Origin: Paenibacillus hemerocallicola
GTDB lineage: Bacteria; Bacillota; Bacilli; Paenibacillales; NBRC-103111
Assembly: GCF_006265175.1 (NCBI RefSeq)
Contig: NZ_VDCQ01000001.1
Location: forward strand, 186,001 to 250,000
Direction: 5' to 3'
DNA length: 64,000 bases
Of this stretch, positions 50,968 to 62,787 are shown piece after piece. Every line of letters starts with the position of its first letter. Within the stretch, counting starts at the first letter, position 1. Under the pieces are notes generated by a model, which was not told the origin of the DNA, searched no databases, and saw nothing but the letters and a program-made list of their open reading frames with translations. The position numbers were made by a program, and so were the translations under genes.

Positions 50968-52290
50968 ATGTCTTGGCTAAAAAGCGCGGCAGCGGCATTG
51001 ACCGTTTCGGTAAGCGCTATCTCAATTCTAGGCTGTGCAGCCGATTCAGGGAAAAAGCAGGAGAATGCGAAGACAGCCGATCTGACGGCTCCGGCCGAGC
51101 TGGTCTTCTATGCGGCCAGCAGCTCCATGACCAAAGAATTGTTCGAAGAGAAGGTCGCCAAACCGGTACAATCGAAATATCCCAACTACACGCTTACCTA
51201 CACGCCGCCGGGAACGAAGATGGAGGATCTGATCGCGACGGGGAAAGTGCCCGACATTTATTGGCTGTCTCTCTCGGAAATGCGGAAGGTGTTGCTGCAG
51301 TACCGGCTGCAATACGATATGACCGAGCTGATTGCCAAAAACAAGTACGACTTGGGGCGGTTCGATCCCGCCGCCGTGCAAACGATCAAAAACGTATCCG
51401 GTGAAGGAAAAATGTTCGGACTGCCCGATTCCTTCAATCCGATGGTGTTGTTTTACAACAAGGATTTGTTCGACCGGTTCGGCGTACCTTATCCGACAGA
51501 CGGGATGACTTGGGACAGCGCCTACGAATTGGCACGCAAGCTGACCCGTTCGGAAGGAGGGACGCCGTATCGGGGGATGGGCATGTTTTATCGTCTCGTG
51601 TTTAACGGCAATCAGCTGTCGCTGCCATTGATCGATCCGGTAAGCGCTCAACCAGTGGTTAACGGCGGAGCGGGTTGGAAGCGTTTGCTTGACAGCGTGA
51701 AGCGGTTTTACGAGATCGAGGGCAACTTGAACGGCTTCAAAGCGGGCGGCGACGGCAACTCGGAGTTGGTCTCATTCATCACGGACCGGAATCTCGCGAT
51801 GATCGTTTCCCCTCTGTCGTCCTATAATCGGGAAGGCTTTCAGAAGCTGAATTGGGATATGGTCGGAGCCCCCACATTCCCCGATGCTCCGAAAATCGGA
51901 TTTCAAGCGGAGCCGCGAGTGTATTTCATTTCGGGCGGCAAAAACAAGGAACAGGCATTCCAAGCCGTCGCCCATCTGGTGTCGGATGAAGTACAAACGA
52001 AAAACAATAAGGAAGGCCAACTGACGAGTCTCAAAAACGATGAGGTCCGCAAAACGTTCGGTCAGCAAACCCCGGCTCTGGCCGGCAAAAATACGGGGGC
52101 GGTCTATTATAACCAATTTGCCCCGACACCCGCGTTCAACCCGGATATTACGACGGACCCGGCGACCATTTTGGCCAAGGAGTTCAATGATGTCATTATC
52201 GGCAAGCAGGACGTGAATACGGCATTGCGCAACACGGACGAGAAAGTGAAAAAAGCGATAGAGGAAGAGAAAGCAGCCGCCAGCAAATGA
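50968..52290 (+). CDS. ABC transporter solute-binding lipoprotein (family 1)
   Basis: A 440-residue extracellular binding protein. The signal sequence ALTVSVSAISILGC gives a lipobox LGC, with Cys23 as the lipidated residue. The mature protein shows MVLFYNKDLFDRFGVPYPT and the MTWDSAYELARKLTR hinge region typical of sugar-binding family 1. No permease is adjacent; the only permeases in the window are at 10560-12425, about 39 kb away. ATG after GGGGGAG. Probably forms a unit with the divergent AraC and FAD-protein genes. Confidence 0.88.
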   Translation: MSWLKSAAAALTVSVSAISILGCAADSGKKQENAKTADLTAPAELVFYAASSSMTKELFEEKVAKPVQSKYPNYTLTYTPPGTKMEDLIATGKVPDIYWLSLSEMRKVLLQYRLQYDMTELIAKNKYDLGRFDPAAVQTIKNVSGEGKMFGLPDSFNPMVLFYNKDLFDRFGVPYPTDGMTWDSAYELARKLTRSEGGTPYRGMGMFYRLVFNGNQLSLPLIDPVSAQPVVNGGAGWKRLLDSVKRFYEIEGNLNGFKAGGDGNSELVSFITDRNLAMIVSPLSSYNREGFQKLNWDMVGAPTFPDAPKIGFQAEPRVYFISGGKNKEQAFQAVAHLVSDEVQTKNNKEGQLTSLKNDEVRKTFGQQTPALAGKNTGAVYYNQFAPTPAFNPDITTDPATILAKEFNDVIIGKQDVNTALRNTDEKVKKAIEEEKAAASK

Positions 52291-52445
52291 CGATGGCCGA
52301 TCGGCCGTTCACCCGCGCAGCAATCAATGTTTTGCCAACATCGGATGGGAAAGCGCTACCTTCGTATTGGACGAGAAAATCCGGGTTGGTACAACCCGAA
52401 TACGTTGCGAGCGGATGGACATTCTAATGAGTGAGGTGATCCAAC

Positions 52446-52739
52446 ATGGCCAGAAGACGAAGCAGAAACACGCCGGTCGTGCCCGGAGCCGGGCGCAGTC
52501 TCGATTCGTTCAAGGCGGCGGTTATGCAGCAGCAAGGATATGCGGTCGATCCCGCCGAGCCGAACGATGTCAAGTTCGCGGTGGCAAAATCGCTGGGCAT
52601 TCCGTTGTCCCCGGGCAATAACGGTCAATTGACGACCGAGCAGGCAGGTAGAATAGGCGGTCAAATCGGCGGAACGATGGTCCGCGAAATGATCCGGATG
52701 GCCCAGCAGCAGCTTGTGGAACGAAGCAGTACCTTATAA
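52446..52739 (+). CDS. Alpha/beta-type small acid-soluble spore protein
   Basis: DNA-coating spore protein that protects spore DNA. The conserved C-terminal part reads NDVKFAVAKSLGIPLSPGN and GRIGGQIGGTMVREMI. At 97 residues it is longer than the usual 60-75, with an added basic N-terminus MARRRSRNTPVVPGAGRSL. The usual E-I/F-A germination-protease site is not clear (KFAVAK instead). GTGAGGTGATCC precedes the ATG; a terminator follows at 52748. Presumably under forespore control. Confidence 0.88.
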   Translation: MARRRSRNTPVVPGAGRSLDSFKAAVMQQQGYAVDPAEPNDVKFAVAKSLGIPLSPGNNGQLTTEQAGRIGGQIGGTMVREMIRMAQQQLVERSSTL

Positions 52740-52747
52740 TGCGATTA

Positions 52748-52793
52748 CCGCCCGCAGCCGGACAGCCTTTCCGACGACGGGCGGTTTTCTTTT
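52748..52793 (+). terminator. Rho-independent terminator
   Basis: CCGCCCG / CGGGCGG stem with a 23-nt inner part and TTTTCTTTT. Confidence 0.85.
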
Positions 52794-52913
52794 CCGTGCA
52801 AATTCATAAAATGTCCTGCCCGGGATAAGAAATGGCATACGGCCTTCTCCCGATTCCGTTAAACTGATCTTGTCATCGTCCGGAACGGGCGAATACGGGA
52901 GAGGGGATTTGGC

Positions 52914-54116
52914 ATGGGAAAATTGGCTATCGACGGAGGAAGTCCGGCTCGAACTACGCCGTTCGCCACGTGGCCGGTCTACGGCGACTTGGAGATGCAG
53001 CTGTTGAAGGAAGTGCTGGAATCCGGCAAATGGGGCGGGGCCGGGGGTGCAGCCAAATCGAACTATGAGCCGAAGCTGCCACAGATGGAGCGGAAGTTTG
53101 CCGAGCTTCAGAACGCCCAGTACGCAGTCAGCGTCGTAAACGGAACGGTTGCCATCACGGTTGCGCTTCAGGCAGCGGGGCTAAAGCCGGGAGACGAAGT
53201 GATCGTTCCGCCTTATACGTTTATCGCTACTGCATCCGCAGCGTTGGCATACGGGATTATCCCGGTATTTGCCGATATCGAAGAAGATACGTTATTGATC
53301 GATCCCGAGAAAGTCGAAGCGCTGATCACAGCCAGGACCAAAGGGATTATTGCGGTCCATATTGCTGGGGCTCCCGCCAACATGACGCGATTGAAGGAAA
53401 TTGCCGCCAAGCACGGGCTCGCCTTGATCGAAGACGCGGCGCAAGCGGTAGGAGCGTCCTGGGAAGGACAAGGCATAGGCGCGATCGGGGATCTCGGAAC
53501 GTTCAGCCTGCAATCGAGCAAAAATTTGAACGCCGGCGAAGGCGGAATCATAACGACGAACAACCGCGACTATTGGGAAAACGCCTGGTCGATCTGCAAC
53601 GTCGGCCGGGTTCCGAACGGCGGCTGGTATCAGCACGACCGGTTTGGACAAAACTACAGGATGTCCGAATTTCAGGCCGCCGTCGTTATGGGGCAAATGA
53701 CGCGGCTCGAAGAGCAAATGAGCAAGCGCGAGCAAAATGCAAAGCTGCTCGACGAACTGCTATCCGGGACGAAAGGCATCCGGTTATTGAAGCAGGATCC
53801 GAGAATTACGCGGCACGCCTACCATTTGTACATGTTCAAGCTGGATCTGGAGCAGGCGGAGAAAAACGACTTCATCCGCAAAGCGAATGCCGAAGGCGTA
53901 CCGCTCGCCGCAGGGTATATTCCGCTCAACCGCAACCAATCGATTATCGAGACGACCAAAATGTGGACCGGCGAAGAGCGGGTATACGATTGTCCGGTGT
54001 GCGAGCGTCTGTGCGAGAAGGAAGCGGTATGGCTGACGCAGCATATTTTGCTGTCCGACGAGCAAGCGATTCGCGAAGTTGCCCACGGCTTGCAAAAGGT
54101 TGCGCAATCCTATTAA
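52914..54116 (+). CDS. DegT/DnrJ/EryC1/StrS-family PLP aminotransferase
   Basis: A 400-residue PLP enzyme with ALQAAGLKPGDEVIVPPYTF, LIEDAAQAVGASW and the PLP lysine in SLQSSKNLNAGEGG. The C-terminal part is complete (HILLSDEQAIREVAHGL). It resembles AHBA-synthase-like and amino-sugar members; the substrate is not known. ATG after GAGAGGGG. Single gene, ended by a terminator; unrelated promoter from the DegT gene at 31331. Confidence 0.88.
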   Translation: MGKLAIDGGSPARTTPFATWPVYGDLEMQLLKEVLESGKWGGAGGAAKSNYEPKLPQMERKFAELQNAQYAVSVVNGTVAITVALQAAGLKPGDEVIVPPYTFIATASAALAYGIIPVFADIEEDTLLIDPEKVEALITARTKGIIAVHIAGAPANMTRLKEIAAKHGLALIEDAAQAVGASWEGQGIGAIGDLGTFSLQSSKNLNAGEGGIITTNNRDYWENAWSICNVGRVPNGGWYQHDRFGQNYRMSEFQAAVVMGQMTRLEEQMSKREQNAKLLDELLSGTKGIRLLKQDPRITRHAYHLYMFKLDLEQAEKNDFIRKANAEGVPLAAGYIPLNRNQSIIETTKMWTGEERVYDCPVCERLCEKEAVWLTQHILLSDEQAIREVAHGLQKVAQSY

Positions 54117-54125
54117 GCCCGGCTA

Positions 54126-54170
54126 ACCAGTCTATCCTCCGCGAGGAGAAAGACTGGTCTGTTCGTTTTT
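54126..54170 (+). terminator. Rho-independent terminator
   Basis: ACCAGTCT / AGACTGGT with an inner TCCTC/GAGGA stem, then a T-rich stretch. Confidence 0.85.
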
Positions 54171-54337
54171 CATAAGGAAGCGGCCTTTCGCAATGTCACC
54201 CCGCGTTTGATAATGAAAATCCCAGATTTGTGGGATGGCGAATTCTTTTTCCAGGCGTATGATTGAAAATAATTATTATTACAGTTTTCAATTTGTGCAA
54301 GGATAAGGGATGCAAACATACGCGGGGAGAGAAAACG

Positions 54338-55425
54338 ATGAAAAACGACATATTGGTAATCGGCGGCTATGGAGTAGCGGGACAAACGATATGCAGAGAA
54401 TTGGGCCGAAAGGCTCCCGGCCGAGTATTTGCGGCTGGAAGAAATTTGGAGCGCGCGGAGCGGTTTTGCAGAACGACCGCAGGGAGTGTTTTGCCTTTGC
54501 GGCTGGATATCCGGGAACCGATCGGGGAGCATTTCTTCGCACGGTTCAGGGCGGTCGTTATGTGTCTCGATCAGGAGAATACCGATTTCTTGCGGGCATG
54601 CATCCGCAGCGGAACCCATTACGCGGACGTGACCGCCAATAACTCCTTTTTGTCGAAGGCGGAGGGGCTGCATGAGGATGCGCGGGCGAACGGCGCTGCA
54701 GTCGTGTTGAGCGTAGGACTTGCGCCCGGCTTGACGAACTTGTTGGCGCTCGAGGCGGTCAATCGAATGGACGCGACGGCCACCCTCGATATATCCGTCA
54801 TGCTCGGCTTGGGCGACTCGCATGGCGATGCTGCGATGGAATGGACTTTGCAAAATGTGAATAAGAGCTTCGAGGTGACAGAGAACGGGGGAAAGGTTTC
54901 CGTTTCAGCTTTTACGGACGGCAAGCTGGTGGACTTCGGAACAGGCTTCGGACGAAAGAAAGCGTACCGGTTCAACTTTCCCGATCAGCACACGCTGCCG
55001 CGCACGCTTCGCGTACCGTCCGTATCCACGAGGCTTTGCTTCGATTCCGGAGCGGCGACCATGCTGCTGGCCGGACTAAAGGCGGTCAACATGCTGTCCT
55101 TCCTGGAGACGAAGCCGGTTCGCAGAGCCGCGATTCGAGTCGCGGGTTTGATCCGCTGGGGACAAGACAGCTACGCGCTTAAGGTTGATGCATGGGGAAA
55201 AAGGACGAGCGCGATGTTTATGTGGAATGCTTTCTGAACGGAAGCAACGAAGCTGACATGACCGGCAAAGTGGCCGCGTTCGTTGCGGAAATGTTATATG
55301 TAGTCACCGATTTGCCTCGGGGAGTATTTCATATCGATCAGGTGATGACACTGACACCTATAAAGCCTCTATTGCGGCAGCGCGCCTTCGTGGAAATCCG
55401 CGTGAACGGCAACATCCTGGCATAG
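54338..55425 (+). pseudogene. Saccharopine-dehydrogenase-like gene split by a -1 frameshift
   Basis: The first frame (ATG 54338, after GGGGAGAG) codes for 299 residues with the Rossmann motif VIGGYGVAGQTICRELGRK, and stops at 55237. The second frame overlaps from 55192 and reads KKDERDVYVECFLNGSNEAD and then MTGKVAAFVAEMLY to 55425, clearly the continuation of the same family (the motif DV.VECF.NGS..A.MTGK). A shift of -1 at GGGAAAA (55195-55201) joins the two. It is either a one-base loss, a sequencing error or programmed frameshifting. The family reduces or couples amino-acid semialdehydes; substrate unknown. Confidence 0.75.
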
Positions 55426-55585
55426 CGACATTCTGTACCGCTTATCGGAAGGGCTAGTATTCCCTATGCAAAATCTAGTACAATGGAGATTAGGTTCTAC
55501 ATCCGGATGGATTGTGGAAGCTTTTGCCGAACTAGAGAACAGGGCCTGCTGGACGGCAAATCACATGATGAAGGAGAGATTTCGG

Positions 55586-56461
55586 TTGAAACTGGATAAC
55601 AAAATCGGCGTCATCGTCGACAGCTTCGGCATCGGCGTCCGCGAAGGACTGAAGAAAGCGAAGGAAGTAGGGGCGCAAGGCGTCCAAATTTATGCGGTTA
55701 AAGGTGAAATGGATCCCGAGAACTTGTCTCCGGCCGCACGCCGCGAGCTGAAAGCTTATATCGAGTCGCTCGGCCTGGAAATTTCCGCGCTTTGCGGCGA
55801 TCTGGGCGGTCACGGCTTCCAGGATAAATCGGCAAATGCCGCAAAGGTGGAAAAATCGAAGCGTATTCTCGATTTGGCCAAAGATTTGGGCACCAATATC
55901 GTGACGACGCATATCGGCATCGTACCGCACGACCGGAACGGCGAAGTGTTCGCAACGATGCAGCAGGCTTGCGAGGAGCTGAGCCAATACGCCAGCAGCA
56001 TGGAAGGATTTTTCGCTATCGAGACCGGTCCGGAAACGTCCGCGCATTTGAAAAGCTTTCTCGACACGTTGTCGAGCAGAGGGGTATCGGTCAACTTCGA
56101 TCCGGCCAATATGGTCATGGTCACGGGGGACGATCCGGTACAAGGCGTACATATTTTGAAGGAATATATCGTTCATACGCATGTGAAGGACGGTATCCGT
56201 TATAAAGAGGTCGATCCCCGCGAGATATACGGAGCCCTCGGCTACGAGCCGATGGATCACGGCAAAATCGCCGAAATGGTCCGTTCCGGAGAGATATTCA
56301 AGGAAGTTCCGCTCGGAGAAGGCAAGGTTGACTTTGATGCGTATTTCCAAGCGCTAGTCGACATCGGCTACAATGGCTACTTGACGATCGAACGCGAAGT
56401 CGGCGACCAGCCGGAGATCGATATCCGCAAAGCGGTAGATTACATTAATCGCTATAAATAA
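55586..56461 (+). CDS. Sugar phosphate isomerase/epimerase family (TIM barrel)
   Basis: A 291-residue xylose-isomerase-like barrel. Landmarks: GVIVDSFGIGVREGLKKA, AQGVQIYAVKGE, IVTTHIGIVP, FFAIETGPETS, VNFDPANMVM and HTHVKDGIRY, ending GYNGYLTIEREVGDQ. TTG start at 55586 is chosen because AAGGAGAGA lies 7 nt upstream; upstream in-frame starts add non-homologous sequence. A monocistronic gene with a terminator at 56472. Different subgroup from the 27358 member. Confidence 0.88.
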   Translation: MKLDNKIGVIVDSFGIGVREGLKKAKEVGAQGVQIYAVKGEMDPENLSPAARRELKAYIESLGLEISALCGDLGGHGFQDKSANAAKVEKSKRILDLAKDLGTNIVTTHIGIVPHDRNGEVFATMQQACEELSQYASSMEGFFAIETGPETSAHLKSFLDTLSSRGVSVNFDPANMVMVTGDDPVQGVHILKEYIVHTHVKDGIRYKEVDPREIYGALGYEPMDHGKIAEMVRSGEIFKEVPLGEGKVDFDAYFQALVDIGYNGYLTIEREVGDQPEIDIRKAVDYINRYK

Positions 56462-56471
56462 GGTTGTACTT

Positions 56472-56513
56472 AAAGAGGCTGCTTCCGGATCGACGGCAAG
56501 CGGCCTCTTTGTT
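56472..56513 (+). terminator. Rho-independent terminator
   Basis: AAAGAGGC / GCCTCTTT with inner GCTT/AAGC; the T tail is short (TTTGTTCG). Confidence 0.75.
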
Positions 56514-56610
56514 CGAATGCATTATTGCGCCAGACCATACAACGGTCCCGAAAAAATGTTCGTATAACGAGCAGGAGATGGGGTGTCGGCCGTGGAAAGC
56601 TTCAAGGCGA

Positions 56611-57225
56611 CTATGTATCGATGATAGCTCCGTACGAGCGGGCGAATTGAACGGCTTGGGAGGCGTCCAGCTTCGCTCCCTTGAAATCGATCGATTTGAA
56701 GTCGAGGCCGTCCAATATCGCGCCCCGCAAATCCGTTCCGGTTAACCGGCACTTGGCCAATATGGCGCGGGTCAGATCCGCTTCCCGCAAATCGCTCTTC
56801 TCCAGATTGCATTCGTACAAGTCGGCTTCCCGGAACCTCACTCCCCGCAGCTTTTGCTTATCCAGCCTAGCGCCGCGCAGATTGACGTACGACCAATCGC
56901 CACCGTTGACGGTGATGCCGTCCAACGTGGCTTCGGCGAAGTCGGAGCCGGTCATTTTGCATTCGTCGAACTTCGAGGCGAACAGGTTTGCATGCTGGAA
57001 GCTGCAATTGGTGAAAGCCGACCCGAGATGCAACGATCCGTTCATCAATGCGCCGGTGAAATCGCAGCTGTCGAATGTGCACGATTCCGTATGCCATTCG
57101 GTCAGCGACGAACCGCGAAATCGGCATCTGTGAAACTGAGAGCCCCGCCATACGTCATTATCGGCAGAGAGTGCGATATCGGACAAGTCGGTATCGGTAT
57201 ATCGCGTGTCGGAGTATAGAGTCAT
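56611..57225 (-). CDS. Pentapeptide-repeat protein
   Basis: A 204-residue protein built of A(D/N)LXX-type repeats, for example LRGARLDKQKLRGVRFREAD, followed by LYECNLEKSDLREADLTRAI, forming a right-handed quadrilateral beta-helix. Some members mimic DNA and bind gyrase, but no such role is shown here. ATG 57225 is chosen after AGGAGGTCC; longer upstream starts are rejected. Divergent from thyX, sharing a 114-bp intergenic region. Confidence 0.88.
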   Translation of the reverse strand: MTLYSDTRYTDTDLSDIALSADNDVWRGSQFHRCRFRGSSLTEWHTESCTFDSCDFTGALMNGSLHLGSAFTNCSFQHANLFASKFDECKMTGSDFAEATLDGITVNGGDWSYVNLRGARLDKQKLRGVRFREADLYECNLEKSDLREADLTRAILAKCRLTGTDLRGAILDGLDFKSIDFKGAKLDASQAVQFARSYGAIIDT

Positions 57226-57339
57226 AATTCGGACCTCCTGATGGGAAGATGGAATGATGTACAAAGTAACATAATCCTTTCCGCGACCCGCTGTCAATCG
57301 ATAGTTGCAACCCTTATCAGAATTAAAGGAGAGATCGGC

Positions 57340-58357
57340 GTGTCCATGCTGAAGGTGTTGGATAAAGGCTATGTCAGGCTTGTGAACCATATGGGATCGG
57401 ATTTGAGCGTTGTCAACGCGGCCCGGGTGTCGTACGCGAAGGAATCCAAGGAGCTGAGCGACAAAGACGTCAAGCTGATCAAGTTCCTCGCTCGGGAAGG
57501 GCATACGTCGCCCTTTCGCCATGTCATGCTTCAGTTCGAGGTGTATGCTCCGCTGATGGTGGCCAGACAATGGTGATTATTGTAGAAACCTACAAAATAG
57601 CCCCTTCGATTAGCGATAATCGTATGGAACCGTGTGAATTCAGGGGACGTCTAAGGCCGTCGAGAGCTAGGATAATCCTGAGCCAAGCCCTATAGAAGCA
57701 GGTACTGCCGAAATTGGGGAAGGTGCAACGACTATCCCGAGAGGGAGTAGGGTTCAAGGGAACTCGAAGCGCACGGCATCCCACGCGGATGATGATATAG
57801 TCTGTCCTTATGGGAAACCATAAGAGGCTTACCGGACCCGGGTAAACCGTAACACAAGAGGGAAATACGTAATCGGCTCCGCTCAGCTCGAGGCGACGGG
57901 GGATAGTTTGGATGCATGGAACGAGTCGAGCCGCCGCTACATCACCGAAGAACCGACTTTCTATGTACCCGAGCCCGGCGAGTGGAGAAGCAAGCCGGAA
58001 AACTCCAAGCAAGGGAGCGGGGAGCCGCTGGAGTCGGAGCTCGGCCGGAAACATACCGACGAGCTGATGCGGTACATCGACGCAGGAATCGAAAAATACG
58101 AAGCTGCGCTGGCGGACGGCGTATGTGCCGAGCAGGCAAGGCTCTTTTTGCCGGCATACGGCATGTATGTCCGGTGGTATTGGACGTCTTCGCTGCAAGC
58201 CGTCTGCCATTTCTTGAATCAGCGTCTGGAGCATGACGCCCAGCAGGAAATCCGCCTGTACGCCAAAGCGATTTTGGAGCTGGGCAGGCCATTGTTTCCT
58301 TATTCGCTCGAGGAGCTGCTTAAGAGGGAACATCAGGCGGAATCGAAACAATTGTAA
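57340..58357 (+). CDS. thyX: ThyX: flavin-dependent thymidylate synthase, interrupted by a group I intron
   Basis: Makes dTMP from dUMP using FAD and methylene-tetrahydrofolate. Exon 1 (57340-57574) ends in FRHVMLQFEVYAPLMVARQW and runs into TGA; exon 2 (57861-58357) continues in frame as WKYVIGSAQLEATGDSLDAW, followed by NESSRRYITEEPTFYVP. The two exons join to a 243-residue protein of normal length, with the FRH and WNESSRRY motifs from different exons. Start GTG 57340 is used (ATG 57346 is possible) after AAAGGAGAG. Without splicing only 78 residues are made. Divergent from the pentapeptide protein; terminator at 58388. Confidence 0.92.
57575..57860 (+). ncRNA. Group I self-splicing intron in thyX
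   Basis: A 286-nt insertion between W and K codons of thyX, without any ORF for a homing endonuclease. Conserved group I elements are read directly: AATCCTGAGCCAAGCC (P/Q, 57674-57689), GGAAGGTGCAACGACT (R, 57718-57733) and GATATAGTC (S/P7, 57794-57802), in the right order. The exon ends with T (TGGT) and the intron with G, as the self-splicing mechanism requires. A 5' site 3 nt earlier (after 57571) also keeps frame, giving W rather than WW. The P/Q and R blocks resemble those of cyanobacterial tRNA introns. Splicing itself is inferred. Confidence 0.9.
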
Positions 58358-58387
58358 TCGGCTCGACTGTATCGGGCACAAGTGAAA

Positions 58388-58433
58388 AGAAGGCCTTCTT
58401 CGTGCGGATAAATGCCGCCAAGGGGCCTTTTTG
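58388..58433 (+). terminator. Rho-independent terminator
   Basis: AAGGCC / GGCCTTTTT with an inner TGCGG...CCGCC-like stem; it follows thyX by 31 bp. Confidence 0.75.
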
Positions 58434-58544
58434 TTTAAAGTTAAGGAAACGAGCTCCGGACCGCAACGAAGGTAACCAAGGAATGGCTGCTGCGAAATGC
58501 AGGGAGCATGAGCAGTCCGGAGGATTCAAAAAAAGTGAGAATCT

Positions 58545-58810
58545 TCATTCACGGTTCGCGACCGGGAAACGCAGTATCGTTTTCATAACGGACGGATCGG
58601 CTTTTCGCGGGTCGCATATATAAATCTCATGGTGCAATCCGTTATAGACGAGCCCTTGGTTATCCATGAACGCTTCGATTCGTTTGACGGTATCGGGTTC
58701 GGTCTCAGAGGGCCCGATATGCATCATTTGTACGCAAGCTCGACGGACTCCGGTCTTGTCGGAGCGTTGTAATACGCTTTGTACGTTTTGGTCAAGTCTA
58801 GCTTTGGCAT
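58545..58810 (-). pseudogene. GyrI-like domain protein with internal deletion
   Basis: The start ATG 58810 has a good GAGAGGAG site and reads MPKLDLTKTYKAYYNAPTRP and then ESVELAYK, the normal N-terminus of GyrI-like small-molecule-binding proteins, but stops after 28 codons. In another frame the family C-terminus follows at once: VQMMHIGPSETEPDTVKRIE and HHEIYICDPRKADPSVMKTI, ending at 58545. Family members are about 200 residues, so roughly 110 central codons are missing. It is a clear remnant, not a short gene. Confidence 0.7.
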
Positions 58811-59040
58811 GGACGGGCTCCTCTCCATAATGCTGGGGCATGTTTAGGACACGAGCCCATCTTACTATCGGTTCCCTGACAAAACCGGTCAGCGACTGCC
58901 GGCTCATATGTTCCTATTATTTTTTCTTTCCGTCACTCGACCGTACGGATTGATGTATTATTTGTGACATCGCGATGTGCCGGGGAAGGAGTAGGCGGGT
59001 GACGCGTCGAACTTTTCCTTGTACACGAAGAAAGGAATGA

Positions 59041-59358
59041 ATGACGGCGATGGGAAACGTATTTCACGCTTTTGATCACCAATATGAGCTGTATGTCGAG
59101 GAAACCGCGGCACGAAGATATCATGTCATCATTAATATTTACTCGGAAGCAGAACCTATTGTGCTGCACGCCTATCCGAATAAGGATGATGCGATTGCAG
59201 CAGCGCAGACATTCCCGAAGCTGTACCGGACGGCTCAGCAAAGAGGGTTCCGTTTGGCGGGGCAATATTTCGAGCATGCCGACGGAAGATCGGTGCATGT
59301 CTCGTTTGCGATGGAGCCGGGTACGACTCCCGACAAATTTATGAAGGTTTTGTTATGA
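59041..59358 (+). CDS. Hypothetical small protein
   Basis: A 105-residue soluble protein, MTAMGNVFHAFDHQYELYVE, rich in aromatic residues and with YHVIINIYSEAEPIV. No family recognised; no signal peptide. GAAAGGA lies 5 nt before ATG 59041 (59050 is an alternative). A terminator follows. Confidence 0.55.
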   Translation: MTAMGNVFHAFDHQYELYVEETAARRYHVIINIYSEAEPIVLHAYPNKDDAIAAAQTFPKLYRTAQQRGFRLAGQYFEHADGRSVHVSFAMEPGTTPDKFMKVLL

Positions 59359-59391
59359 GGGTTAATCATTAATGCCATTAACTATTTGGCA

Positions 59392-59416
59392 TGGACCGTC
59401 CCCGGCGGTCTTTTTT
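59392..59416 (+). terminator. Rho-independent terminator
   Basis: GACCG / CGGTC stem with a short GC-rich loop and six T. Confidence 0.75.
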
Positions 59417-59512
59417 GTCGTATAGATTTACAAGTTTCGGGGTCCCCGCAAATCACCTGGACTAGCATCGGAGCAAAAGCCCGACTTTGTGGGGATATTT
59501 TGTCGTATAGAT
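59413..59512. repeat. Hairpin element bracketed by 15-bp direct repeats
   Basis: TTTTGTCGTATAGAT occurs at 59413-59427 and again at 59498-59512. Between the copies CCCCGCAAA (59444-59452) pairs with TTTGTGGGG (59486-59494). The unit lies just after the ubiB-like gene on the minus strand, where it may also act as terminator. Its regular structure suggests a dispersed non-coding repeat; copies elsewhere cannot be checked here. Confidence 0.55.
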
Positions 59513-59517
59513 CTTAA

Positions 59518-61188
59518 TTAGAATCTTCCCGACTTAAAAATGGAATGAATCAGCCATACGACGAGAAATATCGCGATGACGAATCCGATCTCCAGGGCGG
59601 GAATGTGCCACAGCATGCTGGCCTGCCGGTTTAACGACGAGCCGATGATCAGCCCGGTCATAATAATGCTGAACGACAGCAGTACGATGCTGAACGAAAT
59701 CCGATTAATGATCCGGTCCAGCTTTCTTAAAAATTTATCGAAATCCGGTACGGCGATTTCCAGCCGCCCTCTTTTGAGCACGGTTACGATTTCGCTCAGC
59801 TGCTTCGGCAAATGGACCAGCAATTCTCCATAATCGGCAATCTGTTCCTTGACCCAGTCGGCTACCTTGCCAGGCCGCAGCTGTTCCAACAGCAGACGTT
59901 TGCCGAACGGCTCGGCAATTCGCAGGATGCTGATATCGGGGTCCAACTGCTCCACCAAGCCTTCGATCGTTATCAATGTTTTGCCTACGAGTATAAAATC
60001 GGTCGGGATCCGGATATGGTGACGGTAAGCCACATCAAACAGATCGTTGACCGCCTCGCCAAGACTGATGTCGCTAAAAGGAACGCCGACATACTTGTCC
60101 CGCAGCCGATCGACATCGCGCCGCAAGTGCTGCATATCGACCTGTTCCGTAACCAGACCCATTCGCAAGACGGATTTGATGACCCCCGCAGTGCTTTGGC
60201 GCATTAATGCAATAATGAGAGCGGCAAAATGCTGTTTCATCTCCGGCGTCAGCCGGCCGACCATGCCGAAATCGAGAAAGGCGATTATTTCGCCGGGCAG
60301 CACCATCAGATTGCCCGGGTGAGGGTCCGCATGAAAGAAGCCGTCGATAAAGATTTGCTGAAGGATGGCCTGCATCAATTTCTCCGCTATGCTTTTCGGA
60401 TCATAGCCTCTTGCTCGCAATTGCTCGGGCTGATTTAATTTCGTTCCATCCAAAAACTCCATCGTCATCAGCTTTTTTGAGCTGTACTCCCCATATATTC
60501 GGGGGATGCGGATGCGCGTATGCGGGAGGGTTTGTTTATACAGCGTTTCCGTATTTCTCGCTTCGACGGTATAGTCCAGCTCTTCGATCAACGATTTGCC
60601 GAAGCTGTCGATCATGTTCCTCAGTTGAAATCGTTTTGCCCATTCGAAGCGTGCTTCGGCCAAAACAGCCAAGTTTTGCAGTATGGCCAAATCGGTACGG
60701 ACCGTATAGTCGATTCCGGGACGCTGGATTTTAACCGCCACCCGTTCGCCGGAATGCAGCGTTCCGATATGGACCTGACCGATCGACGCCGCGGCTACCG
60801 GCTCGGTATCGAATGAAGTGAAGGCCTGCTCCAGCTCGATGCCAAGCTCGGCTTGGGCAATAGCGCGGACTTCATGGAAGGAGAAGGGGAGGACGTTGTC
60901 CTGCAACTTCTCCAATTCCTTCAAGATGGAAGGGGGAATCAGATCGGAGCGGGTACTGGCGATTTGCCCGAGCTTCACGAAGGTCGGACCGAGCTCTTCG
61001 ATGACGTGGCGGATGCGTTCCCCGACCGTTTTTCGATCGGCTTTGGCGGAGGTCCAGCCCATTCGTTCCGGTATGGATAACAAATGGAAAATGTCCATTT
61101 CCTCGACAACGAAGCCGAATCCGTGGCGCGTGAGGGCCATAGCGATGTCCCTGTACCGATTGATATGACGAAGCCTTCGGCCGATCAC
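59518..61188 (-). CDS. AarF/UbiB/ABC1-family atypical kinase
   Basis: A 556-residue membrane-associated protein-kinase-like ATPase linked to quinone or lipid metabolism. The family signature is KLGQIASTRSDLIPP, then ASIGQVHIGTLHSGERVAVK (A-rich P-loop and Lys), FFHADPHPGNLMVLPGE and FLDFGMVGRL (metal site). Two C-terminal membrane helices (FSIVLLSFSIIMTGLIIGSS and GFVIAIFLVVWLI) end the protein. A phasin-like gene lies 24 bp upstream on the same strand, an arrangement common in Bacillales. Confidence 0.92.
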   Translation of the reverse strand: MIGRRLRHINRYRDIAMALTRHGFGFVVEEMDIFHLLSIPERMGWTSAKADRKTVGERIRHVIEELGPTFVKLGQIASTRSDLIPPSILKELEKLQDNVLPFSFHEVRAIAQAELGIELEQAFTSFDTEPVAAASIGQVHIGTLHSGERVAVKIQRPGIDYTVRTDLAILQNLAVLAEARFEWAKRFQLRNMIDSFGKSLIEELDYTVEARNTETLYKQTLPHTRIRIPRIYGEYSSKKLMTMEFLDGTKLNQPEQLRARGYDPKSIAEKLMQAILQQIFIDGFFHADPHPGNLMVLPGEIIAFLDFGMVGRLTPEMKQHFAALIIALMRQSTAGVIKSVLRMGLVTEQVDMQHLRRDVDRLRDKYVGVPFSDISLGEAVNDLFDVAYRHHIRIPTDFILVGKTLITIEGLVEQLDPDISILRIAEPFGKRLLLEQLRPGKVADWVKEQIADYGELLVHLPKQLSEIVTVLKRGRLEIAVPDFDKFLRKLDRIINRISFSIVLLSFSIIMTGLIIGSSLNRQASMLWHIPALEIGFVIAIFLVVWLIHSIFKSGRF

Positions 61189-61212
61189 AAACGCAGCACT
61201 CCTTTCCGGGCA

Positions 61213-61515
61213 TTATTGGCTATCCGACTGCCGGGCTTCCAATTGGTCCAAACGCCGCTCCAGTCTCTCGATGTCCTGCTTGGTCGCCACATGGAGCTCG
61301 TCAAGCAGCTTGAGCATATTTTCTTTGACGACCCGTTTCATTTCTTCTTTCTGATCTTCGCCTTTCTCGATTAAGCGCGTAACCAGCTCTTTCGATTCCG
61401 ATGGCGCTATTTCGCCCTTTCTCACCAACTCGTCTACGACCTGCTCGATCTTTTCTTTGCCCATGATCGTAATGCCGATCCCCAGCGACATCGCTTTTCT
61501 GATTAAATCGCTCAT
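61213..61515 (-). CDS. Phasin-like / PHA-regulator-type small protein
   Basis: A 100-residue helical protein, MSDLIRKAMSLGIGITIMGK, then EKIEQVVDELVRKGEIA and a heptad C-terminus ATKQDIERLERRLDQLEA. This matches the phasin-like family often placed next to ubiB-type genes. GGAGGTTGATACGG precedes ATG 61515; an upstream TTG at 61524 overlaps this. Likely co-transcribed with the AarF/UbiB gene. Confidence 0.82.
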   Translation of the reverse strand: MSDLIRKAMSLGIGITIMGKEKIEQVVDELVRKGEIAPSESKELVTRLIEKGEDQKEEMKRVVKENMLKLLDELHVATKQDIERLERRLDQLEARQSDSQ

Positions 61516-61666
61516 CCGTATCAACCTCCATTCCGTTGCCGTCTAGTACTGGGTTGCCCATCTTTATGGGAAATTATGAATATGGGAGGCGTATTTTAAA
61601 TTTATTAATGGCATTAACTATTTAGCGTTGCAGTATCGTATTATCGTGGATTCAACCGTGCTCGGG

Positions 61667-61878
61667 GTAAGCGTAATACCCTACACACCTTCAAGAATTC
61701 AAATTTACGTGAGAGAACGAGAGCAGCCTAATCCAATCGGAGGTGCCCTGTGACCACTATAGAACAGCGTCGCCAAGAATGGACAGCCCGTATCGCGGAC
61801 TACAAAGCAAGTGGGCTTACAATGTCAGCGTGCTGCGATGCTCATTATGTTACAAAGGACTGTAAAACAGGATATTAA
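61667..61878 (+). mobile_element. IS66-family left-end remnant with truncated tnpA
   Basis: GTAAGCG at 61667-61673 is the usual start of IS66 terminal repeats. It is followed by a GTG-started 42-residue frame (61750-61878), MTTIEQRRQEWTARIADYKA then SGLTMSACCDAHYVT, which matches the N-terminus of the IS66 TnpA-like accessory protein and then breaks off into unrelated sequence ending KDCKTGY. No tnpB, transposase or right end is seen, so only about 210 bp remain. Confidence 0.7.
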
Positions 61879-61890
61879 TACAAAACATAA

Positions 61891-61920
61891 GCCATGCGAG
61901 AGAAATCGGCGCATGGCTTT
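61891..61920. terminator. Hairpin terminator of the RCC1-like gene
   Basis: GCCATGCG / CGCATGGC with a 11-nt loop. It lies just past the minus-strand RCC1-like stop; the T tract on the minus strand is weak. Confidence 0.5.
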
Positions 61921-61950
61921 CAATATTATATGTATTATTAAGATTGAAAA

Positions 61951-62787
61951 CTAATTGCCGGGCAGTTGGATGCCGCGCCAGCCGCTTACATTGCATTGGC
62001 CTTCATGATTTCGACCCACAGCAACCACCGTGCCGTCCGATTTAAGACCGACGGAATGAGAGCAACCCGCCACAACCGCCACAATATCGCGCCAGCCACT
62101 TATATTGCATTGGCCATGCTCATTCCAACCCGCAGCCGCCACAGTACCGTCCGATTTAAGGCCGATGGTATGATTACTACCCGCCGCTATCGCCACAATA
62201 CCGCGCCAGTCGCTAACATCACATTGGTCGCGCTTATTCCAACCCACAGCCGCCACCGTGCCGTCCGATTTAAGCCCGACGGTATGCCAGTCACCCGCCG
62301 CAACCGCCACAATATCACGCCAACCGCTTACATTGCATTGGCCTTCATGATTTCGACCCATAGCCGCCACCGTGCCATCCGATTTAAGCCCGACGGTACG
62401 ACGCCAACCTGCCGCCACCGCCACCATATCGCGCCAGCCGCTTACATCGCATTGGTCATGCTTATTCCAACCCACAGCCGCCACCGTGCCGTCCGATTTA
62501 AGCCCGATTGTATGAGCATTGCCCGTATGAGCATTACCCGCCGCAACCGCCACCATATCGCGCCAGCTGCTTACATCACATTGGCCATATTTATTATCAC
62601 CCATAGCCGTCACCGTGCCGTCCGATTTAAGACCGACGGTATGACGATAACCTGCCGCTATGGTATCTTTAGGCCACCGTTTCACCGTTAACGCCGCCTG
62701 CGGCGCGGTTGGTTGAAGGGGCTGCAACCCGGGTGCGGTTTCTGGCCTTTCCTCAAACTTCAACGCCTCGGCACCAGTGTGTCGCAT
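61951..62787 (-). CDS. RCC1-like repeat protein (probably N-terminally damaged)
   Basis: A 278-residue protein made of six nearly identical 38-residue repeats such as TVGLKSDGTVAAMGRNHEGQ followed by CNVSGWRDIVAVAAGDWH. The repeats are 114 bp each and recall RCC1 blades (beta-propeller). The first repeat has a 5-residue duplication (TGNAH). The ATG at 62787 has no ribosome site. A good one (AAGGGGGA) precedes ATG 62810 in another frame, which reads METVAAKRC and stops after 16 codons. A one-base shift would join this start to the repeats, so the gene may be broken. Function unknown. Confidence 0.6.
   Translation of the reverse strand: MRHTGAEALKFEERPETAPGLQPLQPTAPQAALTVKRWPKDTIAAGYRHTVGLKSDGTVTAMGDNKYGQCDVSSWRDMVAVAAGNAHTGNAHTIGLKSDGTVAAVGWNKHDQCDVSGWRDMVAVAAGWRRTVGLKSDGTVAAMGRNHEGQCNVSGWRDIVAVAAGDWHTVGLKSDGTVAAVGWNKRDQCDVSDWRGIVAIAAGSNHTIGLKSDGTVAAAGWNEHGQCNISGWRDIVAVVAGCSHSVGLKSDGTVVAVGRNHEGQCNVSGWRGIQLPGN

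Follow-up and report, generated by a model that had tools for sequence, protein, structure and literature searches.

A group I intron without an endonuclease gene in the chromosomal thyX gene of Paenibacillus hemerocallicola

The DNA analyzed here (hereafter the window) is a stretch of 64,000 nucleotides from Paenibacillus hemerocallicola. Its plus strand carries a thyX gene in two exons with a group I intron between them, and a homologous intron occurs at the same nucleotide in three further species, one of the same genus (G003) and two of another genus of the family (G093 and G104). The gene comprises the following features:

57325 to 57331, plus strand: likely Shine-Dalgarno sequence of thyX, AAAGGAG; AAGGAGAGATCGG stands upstream in G003 too
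57340 to 57574, plus strand: thyX exon 1, start codon GTG 57340, ATG 57346 possible; ends CAATGGT, in phase 1; matches positions 1-74 of the Pfam Thy1 profile
57574 to 57576, plus strand: in-frame TGA of the unspliced reading, lying across the 5' splice site
57575 to 57860, plus strand: group I intron of 286 nt without an endonuclease ORF, ending in G; 86 bits with RF00028; homologues at the same site
57861 to 58357, plus strand: thyX exon 2, begins GGAAATAC, which completes WKY, and ends TAA

The thyX frame halts at RQW-TGA (57574-57576), restarts in frame at 57861 and runs to 58357, which confirms the interruption reported in the first-pass annotation and sets the gap at 286 nt. The intron splits the second tryptophan codon of the RQWWKY motif as T|GG. 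Joining T57574 to G57861 gives, on translation, a full ThyX of 243 amino acids with CAA-TGG-TGG-AAA-TAC at the junction, the predicted spliced join being TGGTGGAAA. This product is a single unbroken match to Thy1 (PF02511; 129.9 bits, profile positions 1-190 of 191), whereas exon 1 by itself scores 49.9 bits and the exon 2 part 75.3 bits. In an alignment with solved ThyX structures, the interrupted tryptophan of this product falls beside the RHR of the TM0449 ThyX (1kq4).

With the Rfam group I model (RF00028, Intron_gpI; gathering score 50 bits), the gap scores 86 bits (E 5.3e-22) over the full model (1-253), and it is the only match listed across the whole 9.65-Mb genome. All the sequence marks on which the first reading had relied are present: the quoted core blocks follow each other in order at 57674, 57718 and 57794, exon 1 ends in T, and the final dinucleotide is AG in each of the four thyX introns, which thus all have a terminal G. 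An endonuclease-sized ORF occurs in none of these four, their longest stop-to-stop frames spanning 89 (window, antisense), 50, 67 and 57 amino acids; the thyX intron thereby lacks the internal ORF that characterizes mobile introns with a homing endonuclease. Positions 57575-57860 are a genuine group I intron within thyX, and free of an endonuclease, as had been proposed. Because the intron recurs at an identical position in three related species, we consider it real and very probably removed by splicing.

The exact cut follows from relatives without the intron. The stretch CAR-TGG-T|GG-AAR-TAY is uninterrupted in 79 of 80 intronless relatives (the best 80 of 124, from named genomes, a set that favours unsplit genes because the best matches were kept); the exception, L090, reads RQWHKY and is likewise unbroken. 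The Rfam search and the comparison with intronless ThyX homologues, both of which had been suggested as checks, agree with the intron assignment. Since the 79 relatives keep the T|GG codon, the 5' splice site is placed after T57574, and the cut after T is fixed because the introns of G093 and G104 start with T. In the window, the boundary can be slid by one G with the product unchanged. Of the two 5' sites considered initially, the one after 57574 stands; the other, after 57571, would yield a product with a single tryptophan (RQWKY) and was rejected, as 79 of the 80 relatives retain the second tryptophan codon and the internal guide pairs with GGU.

A group I secondary structure was drawn on the window copy, with these elements (cells and pairs refer to the alignment of the four thyX introns):

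57572 to 57602, plus strand: P1, formed by exon GGU (57572-57574) and the internal guide GCC (57600-57602), with a U.G pair at the splice site and an inner hairpin
57605 to 57624, plus strand: P2 with a GCGA loop; two pairs with double-sided changes, one unpaired cell
57630 to 57636, plus strand: 5' strand of P3, pairing with 57770-57776; one pair with double-sided changes
57639 to 57644, plus strand: 5' strand of P4, pairing with CCTGAG (57677-57682); all cells paired, one pair varying on one side
57730 to 57734, plus strand: 5' strand of P7, GACTA, pairing with TAGTC (57798-57802); invariant in all four and therefore without covariation either way
57735 to 57765, plus strand: two hairpins between P7 and the 3' strand of P3, at 57735-57746 (which we take to be P7.1-like) and 57750-57765 (presumably P7.2-like); one double-sided pair each, one unpaired cell in the first
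57777 to 57791, plus strand: P8; one pair with double-sided changes
57807 to 57824, plus strand: P9; three pairs with double-sided changes
57826 to 57848, plus strand: hairpin 3' of P9, presumably P9.1-like; four pairs with double-sided changes, one unpaired cell

The first-pass annotation saw no obvious P1, a statement that has to be corrected: GGU/GCC with the U.G pair at the cut is found in all four homologues, if weakly in G003. Folded alone, P1 reaches -8.3 kcal/mol in the window (z = -3.65), -0.9 in G003, -11.6 in G093 and -10.6 in G104, and 1, 87, 16 and 1 of 200 shuffles, respectively, fold as well; the P1 of G003 is by itself a weak stem of 3 bp, and that of G093 is moderate relative to its shuffles. 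The G003 copy (L003:1958-2230) has no inner P1 hairpin (a 14-nt gap in its place) and represents a natural minimal-P1 variant.

Across the four sequences, 98.7% of the 232 cells of the drawn structure are paired (as high in 0 of 500 shuffles), including every cell of the P3, P4, P7 and P8 core. Double-sided changes are present in 13 of 58 pairs, a count matched by 4 of 500 shuffles and by none of the slid controls (0-2), although the comparison with slid versions is biased in favour of a structure that was drawn from the window copy. No shuffle out of 500 attains its covariation score; the count of further pair types is as high in 382 of 500. RNAalifold finds double-sided changes at 14 of 79 pairs of the same alignment. 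This covariation amounts to few independent events because the homologues, just four in number, form two pairs of close relatives. A nested fold of the entire intron, in which P3 and P7 are not jointly representable, outdoes its shuffles to a moderate degree (z = -1.61, 8 of 100 shuffles as good). Both hairpins between P7 and the 3' strand of P3 are retained in the pair counts of the four introns; we take such a pair of hairpins as the criterion for subgroup IA, to which the thyX intron would presumably belong. The introns of the window and G003 are 85.7% identical (ungapped) while 57% of the synonymous sites in their thyX genes differ, and the intron therefore evolves under constraint.

Within the family, a thyX match is found in 25 of 104 genomes: 19 are uninterrupted, four are split by the intron and two are partial (G013 and G120). 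The partial ones, in which no exon 1 is seen and no RF00028 match is listed, are read as remnants and were rejected as further carriers. In the genus of the window, two of five genomes have thyX, both with the intron. Some genomes of the family and order encode a ThyX identical to that of a named species, such as G095 to Paenibacillus cremeus (L076) and G033 to P. eucommiae (L047), and the family is accordingly placed within or beside Paenibacillaceae. RF00028 is matched in eight of the 104 genomes and exceeds its cut-off in five, namely with the four thyX introns (83-93 bits) and a flagellin intron in G034. The thyX introns measure 286, 273, 320 and 292 nt, each flanked by CAATGGT and GGAA. 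A search with the intron DNA through 392 genomes of the order retrieved the same four and, more weakly, one further group I intron each in G217 and G373, with host genes that are read as prophage genes. A covariance model built from the four thyX introns (R1), with which these score 216-232 bits by construction, gave under strict filters a best further score of 95.6 bits in the 392 genomes of the order and 98.2 bits in 398 genomes of the phylum. When the flanks of ten high scorers were translated, several lay in phage tail genes and others in ribonucleotide reductase or flagellin genes, as named from the translations; L352 is cut by a contig end, and its host gene is not readable. The introns L349, L351 and L353, in tape-measure-like phage tail genes, are among the nearest relatives outside thyX. 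Flagellin genes of other Bacillota have group I introns close to their 3' ends, namely L183 (G034:C55:44741-45247), L323 and L324; these appear to belong to the type known from thermophilic Bacillus.

By blastn, 340 records of a phage collection match part of the intron and none matches 80% of it or more; the strongest listed match (E 3e-14) covers 34%. No intron interrupts viral thyX among the best 80 of 94 matches (79 read through by script, L144 by eye), nor among the best 80 of 259 in a second viral set (74 by script, six by eye). In a tblastn search, 1227 phage records match, and the 60 listed are each in one piece, with no split thyX. Of two DNA-pattern searches for intron-bearing thyX, one gave four unrelated matches that have no Rfam match and the other none.

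The surroundings of thyX were described at the outset as free of phage genes. Comparison of ten neighbouring proteins (window 50968-62787) with Pfam and PHROGs bears this out in that no prophage-like set emerges, though some PHROGs matches of shared families do occur; a phage origin of the locus was rejected on this ground. At most five of the ten match PHROGs, among them an aminotransferase, a pentapeptide protein, an ABC1-type kinase (phrog_9248, of unknown function, E 8e-88) and an RCC1-repeat protein whose matches include a 'tail protein' family (E 4e-6); we read these as families shared with phages rather than as signs of a prophage. The window and G003 have common genes on both sides of thyX, and G093 and G104 share a set of their own. 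Between the thyX neighbourhoods of the window and of G093 and G104 (about 14 kb each), thyX is the only common gene (blastp, frames of at least 110 codons). Two minus-strand neighbours may be recorded here: the protein at 61951-62787 has five matched RCC1 repeats, and the pentapeptide-repeat protein directly upstream of thyX (56611-57192) is unmatched in the 14.5 kb that surround thyX in G003.

The match to the intron model, the unbroken sites of relatives, the homologues at one nucleotide, the covariation and the selection on the joined frame are direct results; splicing follows from these by strong inference. We are highly confident in the account as a whole, that is, group I splicing of thyX to a 243-residue ThyX, the additional presence of thyA, and repeated gain or loss of the intron at its site. 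In the usual course of group I splicing, guanosine would attack after U57574, positioned by the U.G pair of P1, and the released exon 1 would attack after G57860; ligation of the exons would then create the double-tryptophan junction and the message for a flavin-dependent thymidylate synthase. Translation of unspliced RNA ends 0-14 nt into the intron in all four homologues, and the in-frame UGA over the 5' splice site may exclude ribosomes from the ribozyme core before it folds. In-frame stops with the upstream exon have been noted for many such bacterial introns and may aid intron folding, according to one report (PMC3984707).

A very different reading would see a decayed, non-splicing insertion in a thyX pseudogene that is tolerated thanks to thyA. 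Such tolerance could draw on the thyA gene of the same genome, and the loss of the inner P1 hairpin in G003 might be taken for decay, but the exons speak against it: when joined, they keep one frame of 239-243 amino acids, and their dN/dS is 0.063 between the window and G003 and 0.028 between G093 and G104, values that are approximate because dS (about 1.07 in both pairs) is near or beyond 1. The pairings of the intron are, moreover, maintained through double-sided changes. We therefore regard a decayed insertion as highly improbable; the spliced frame is under purifying selection and, given dN/dS together with the conservation of the intron, a thyX product that is never made is hardly to be expected.

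Splicing of thyX had been thought to decide the supply of dTMP, a view that is not supported. Contig C106 of the same genome has an open thyA frame of 284 amino acids without stops, and thyA was found in all 12 genomes chosen for this comparison, including the four intron bearers. Because an uninterrupted thyA is also present, the cell need not depend on the intron, and dTMP supply, judged from gene content, need not hinge on thyX splicing. The idea of ThyX as the sole thymidylate synthase was rejected owing to thyA. Within the genus (G000-G004), a single thyA accompanies the intron-bearing thyX in both genomes that have it; each of the other three, which lack thyX, shows two long thyA matches, and G002 a short third one as well. 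It may be that thyX and a second thyA replace each other.

The history of the intron was approached through a ThyX tree of 95 of the 98 rows collected (a motif filter dropped G034, G110 and L090, and eight loci of other ThyX types were left out). Some rows of the tree are long, and the DNA alignment of L099 shows shifts. The two intron-bearing pairs fall in different groups, with the intronless L053, L071 and L099 beside G093. The intron label needs three changes on this tree, as do 26 of 500 shuffles, and placing the four intron-bearing ThyX in one clade is rejected (p-AU 0.0039). Because they do not form one clade, gain or loss of the intron took place on more than one occasion at a single nucleotide, without an endonuclease. 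Introns of different pairs are 75.6-79.3% identical (ungapped), exon identity, taken in windows, is 0.62-0.85, and a co-conversion test found no local rise of exon similarity at the intron site; there is thus no sign of recent transfer, since the introns have diverged about as much as the exons and the local rise is absent.

Two histories would fit such a pattern. We give an even chance to two or more horizontal entries at this site, either by reverse splicing or by homing, the endonuclease for which would have acted in trans or have been lost afterwards. Such entries would account for the identical insertion nucleotide of two ThyX groups that are not sisters and whose genomic surroundings are unrelated, with only thyX in common, and the AU rejection of one clade points the same way. 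The best R1 relatives outside thyX include introns of phage tail genes, and 340 phage records match part of the intron core; yet none of these matches covers 80% of the intron, no thyX intron was met in the best-of lists of viral and phage loci examined, none of the four introns has an endonuclease ORF, and entry left no co-conversion mark. The alternative, to which we assign slightly less than an even chance, is that the intron goes back to an ancestral thyX and has been lost precisely in most lineages without any horizontal movement. Intron divergence on a par with exon divergence, and exons that are no more similar beside the site than elsewhere, would be natural outcomes of it. Against it stand the uninterrupted genes in 19 of the 25 family genomes that have thyX and in all of the best 80 of 124 relatives (a choice that favours unsplit genes), as well as the tree, on which the label changes three times and one clade is rejected, so that purely vertical descent needs further losses. 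More tentative still is a broader proposal, doubtful though worth stating: an endonuclease-free mini-ribozyme would have entered one thyX nucleotide at least twice, in distinct ThyX lineages and at different places of the genome, would still be spreading, through reverse splicing or an endonuclease acting in trans, and would persist because thyA buffers its host, while splicing might set ThyX output according to conditions.

The introns of phage T4 td and of the Bacillus mojavensis thymidylate synthase gene interrupt the folate-dependent thyA/td-type enzyme, not ThyX. Both encode GIY-YIG endonucleases (I-TevI and I-BmoI), in contrast to the thyX intron, which has none. They resemble it as group I introns in a thymidylate synthase gene and, with B. 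mojavensis, in a bacterial one (PMC3161791); the initial remark that such introns are known from phages was incomplete. Bacterial flagellin, recA and nrdE genes also harbour group I introns (PMC3984707), which share with the thyX intron a protein-coding bacterial host and, as is noted for many of them, the in-frame stop with the upstream exon and differ from it in host gene and site. With RF00028, the flagellin and ribonucleotide reductase introns encountered here reach 28-77 bits, compared with 83-93 for the thyX four, and 42-64 bits with R1, compared with 216-232 for the thyX introns, on which R1 was trained. Bacillota phage tail gene introns (L322, L349, L351 and L353), assigned to tape-measure or other tail genes from their flanking frames, are among the best outside matches of R1 and, at 82-98 bits, remain far below the thyX introns. 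Two mycobacteriophages are reported to carry inteins in ThyX-like proteins (PMC5050341); these are self-splicing elements in a ThyX gene too, but they act at the protein level and in phages. No report of an intron in thyX was found in the open-access literature searched. That protein genes of bacterial chromosomes, a Bacillus thymidylate synthase gene included, can contain group I introns is already known; what is new is the host gene thyX and the site, the ribozyme being ordinary.

Few bacterial protein genes have been found with a group I intron in them, and thyX can now be counted among these. An essential pathway that depends on a ribozyme is not what this case offers; rather, two natural pairs of homologues, many uninterrupted sites and a second thymidylate synthase gene in the same cell make for a clean system for asking how so small an intron, lacking an endonuclease, is maintained and whether it is mobile. 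Another group I intron lies near thyX elsewhere: L354 (G075:C10:32503-32630) is situated in a ribonucleotide reductase gene, 3.6 kb from the thyX of that genome on the same contig, and has an ORF upstream of its core that looks GIY-YIG-like by eye.
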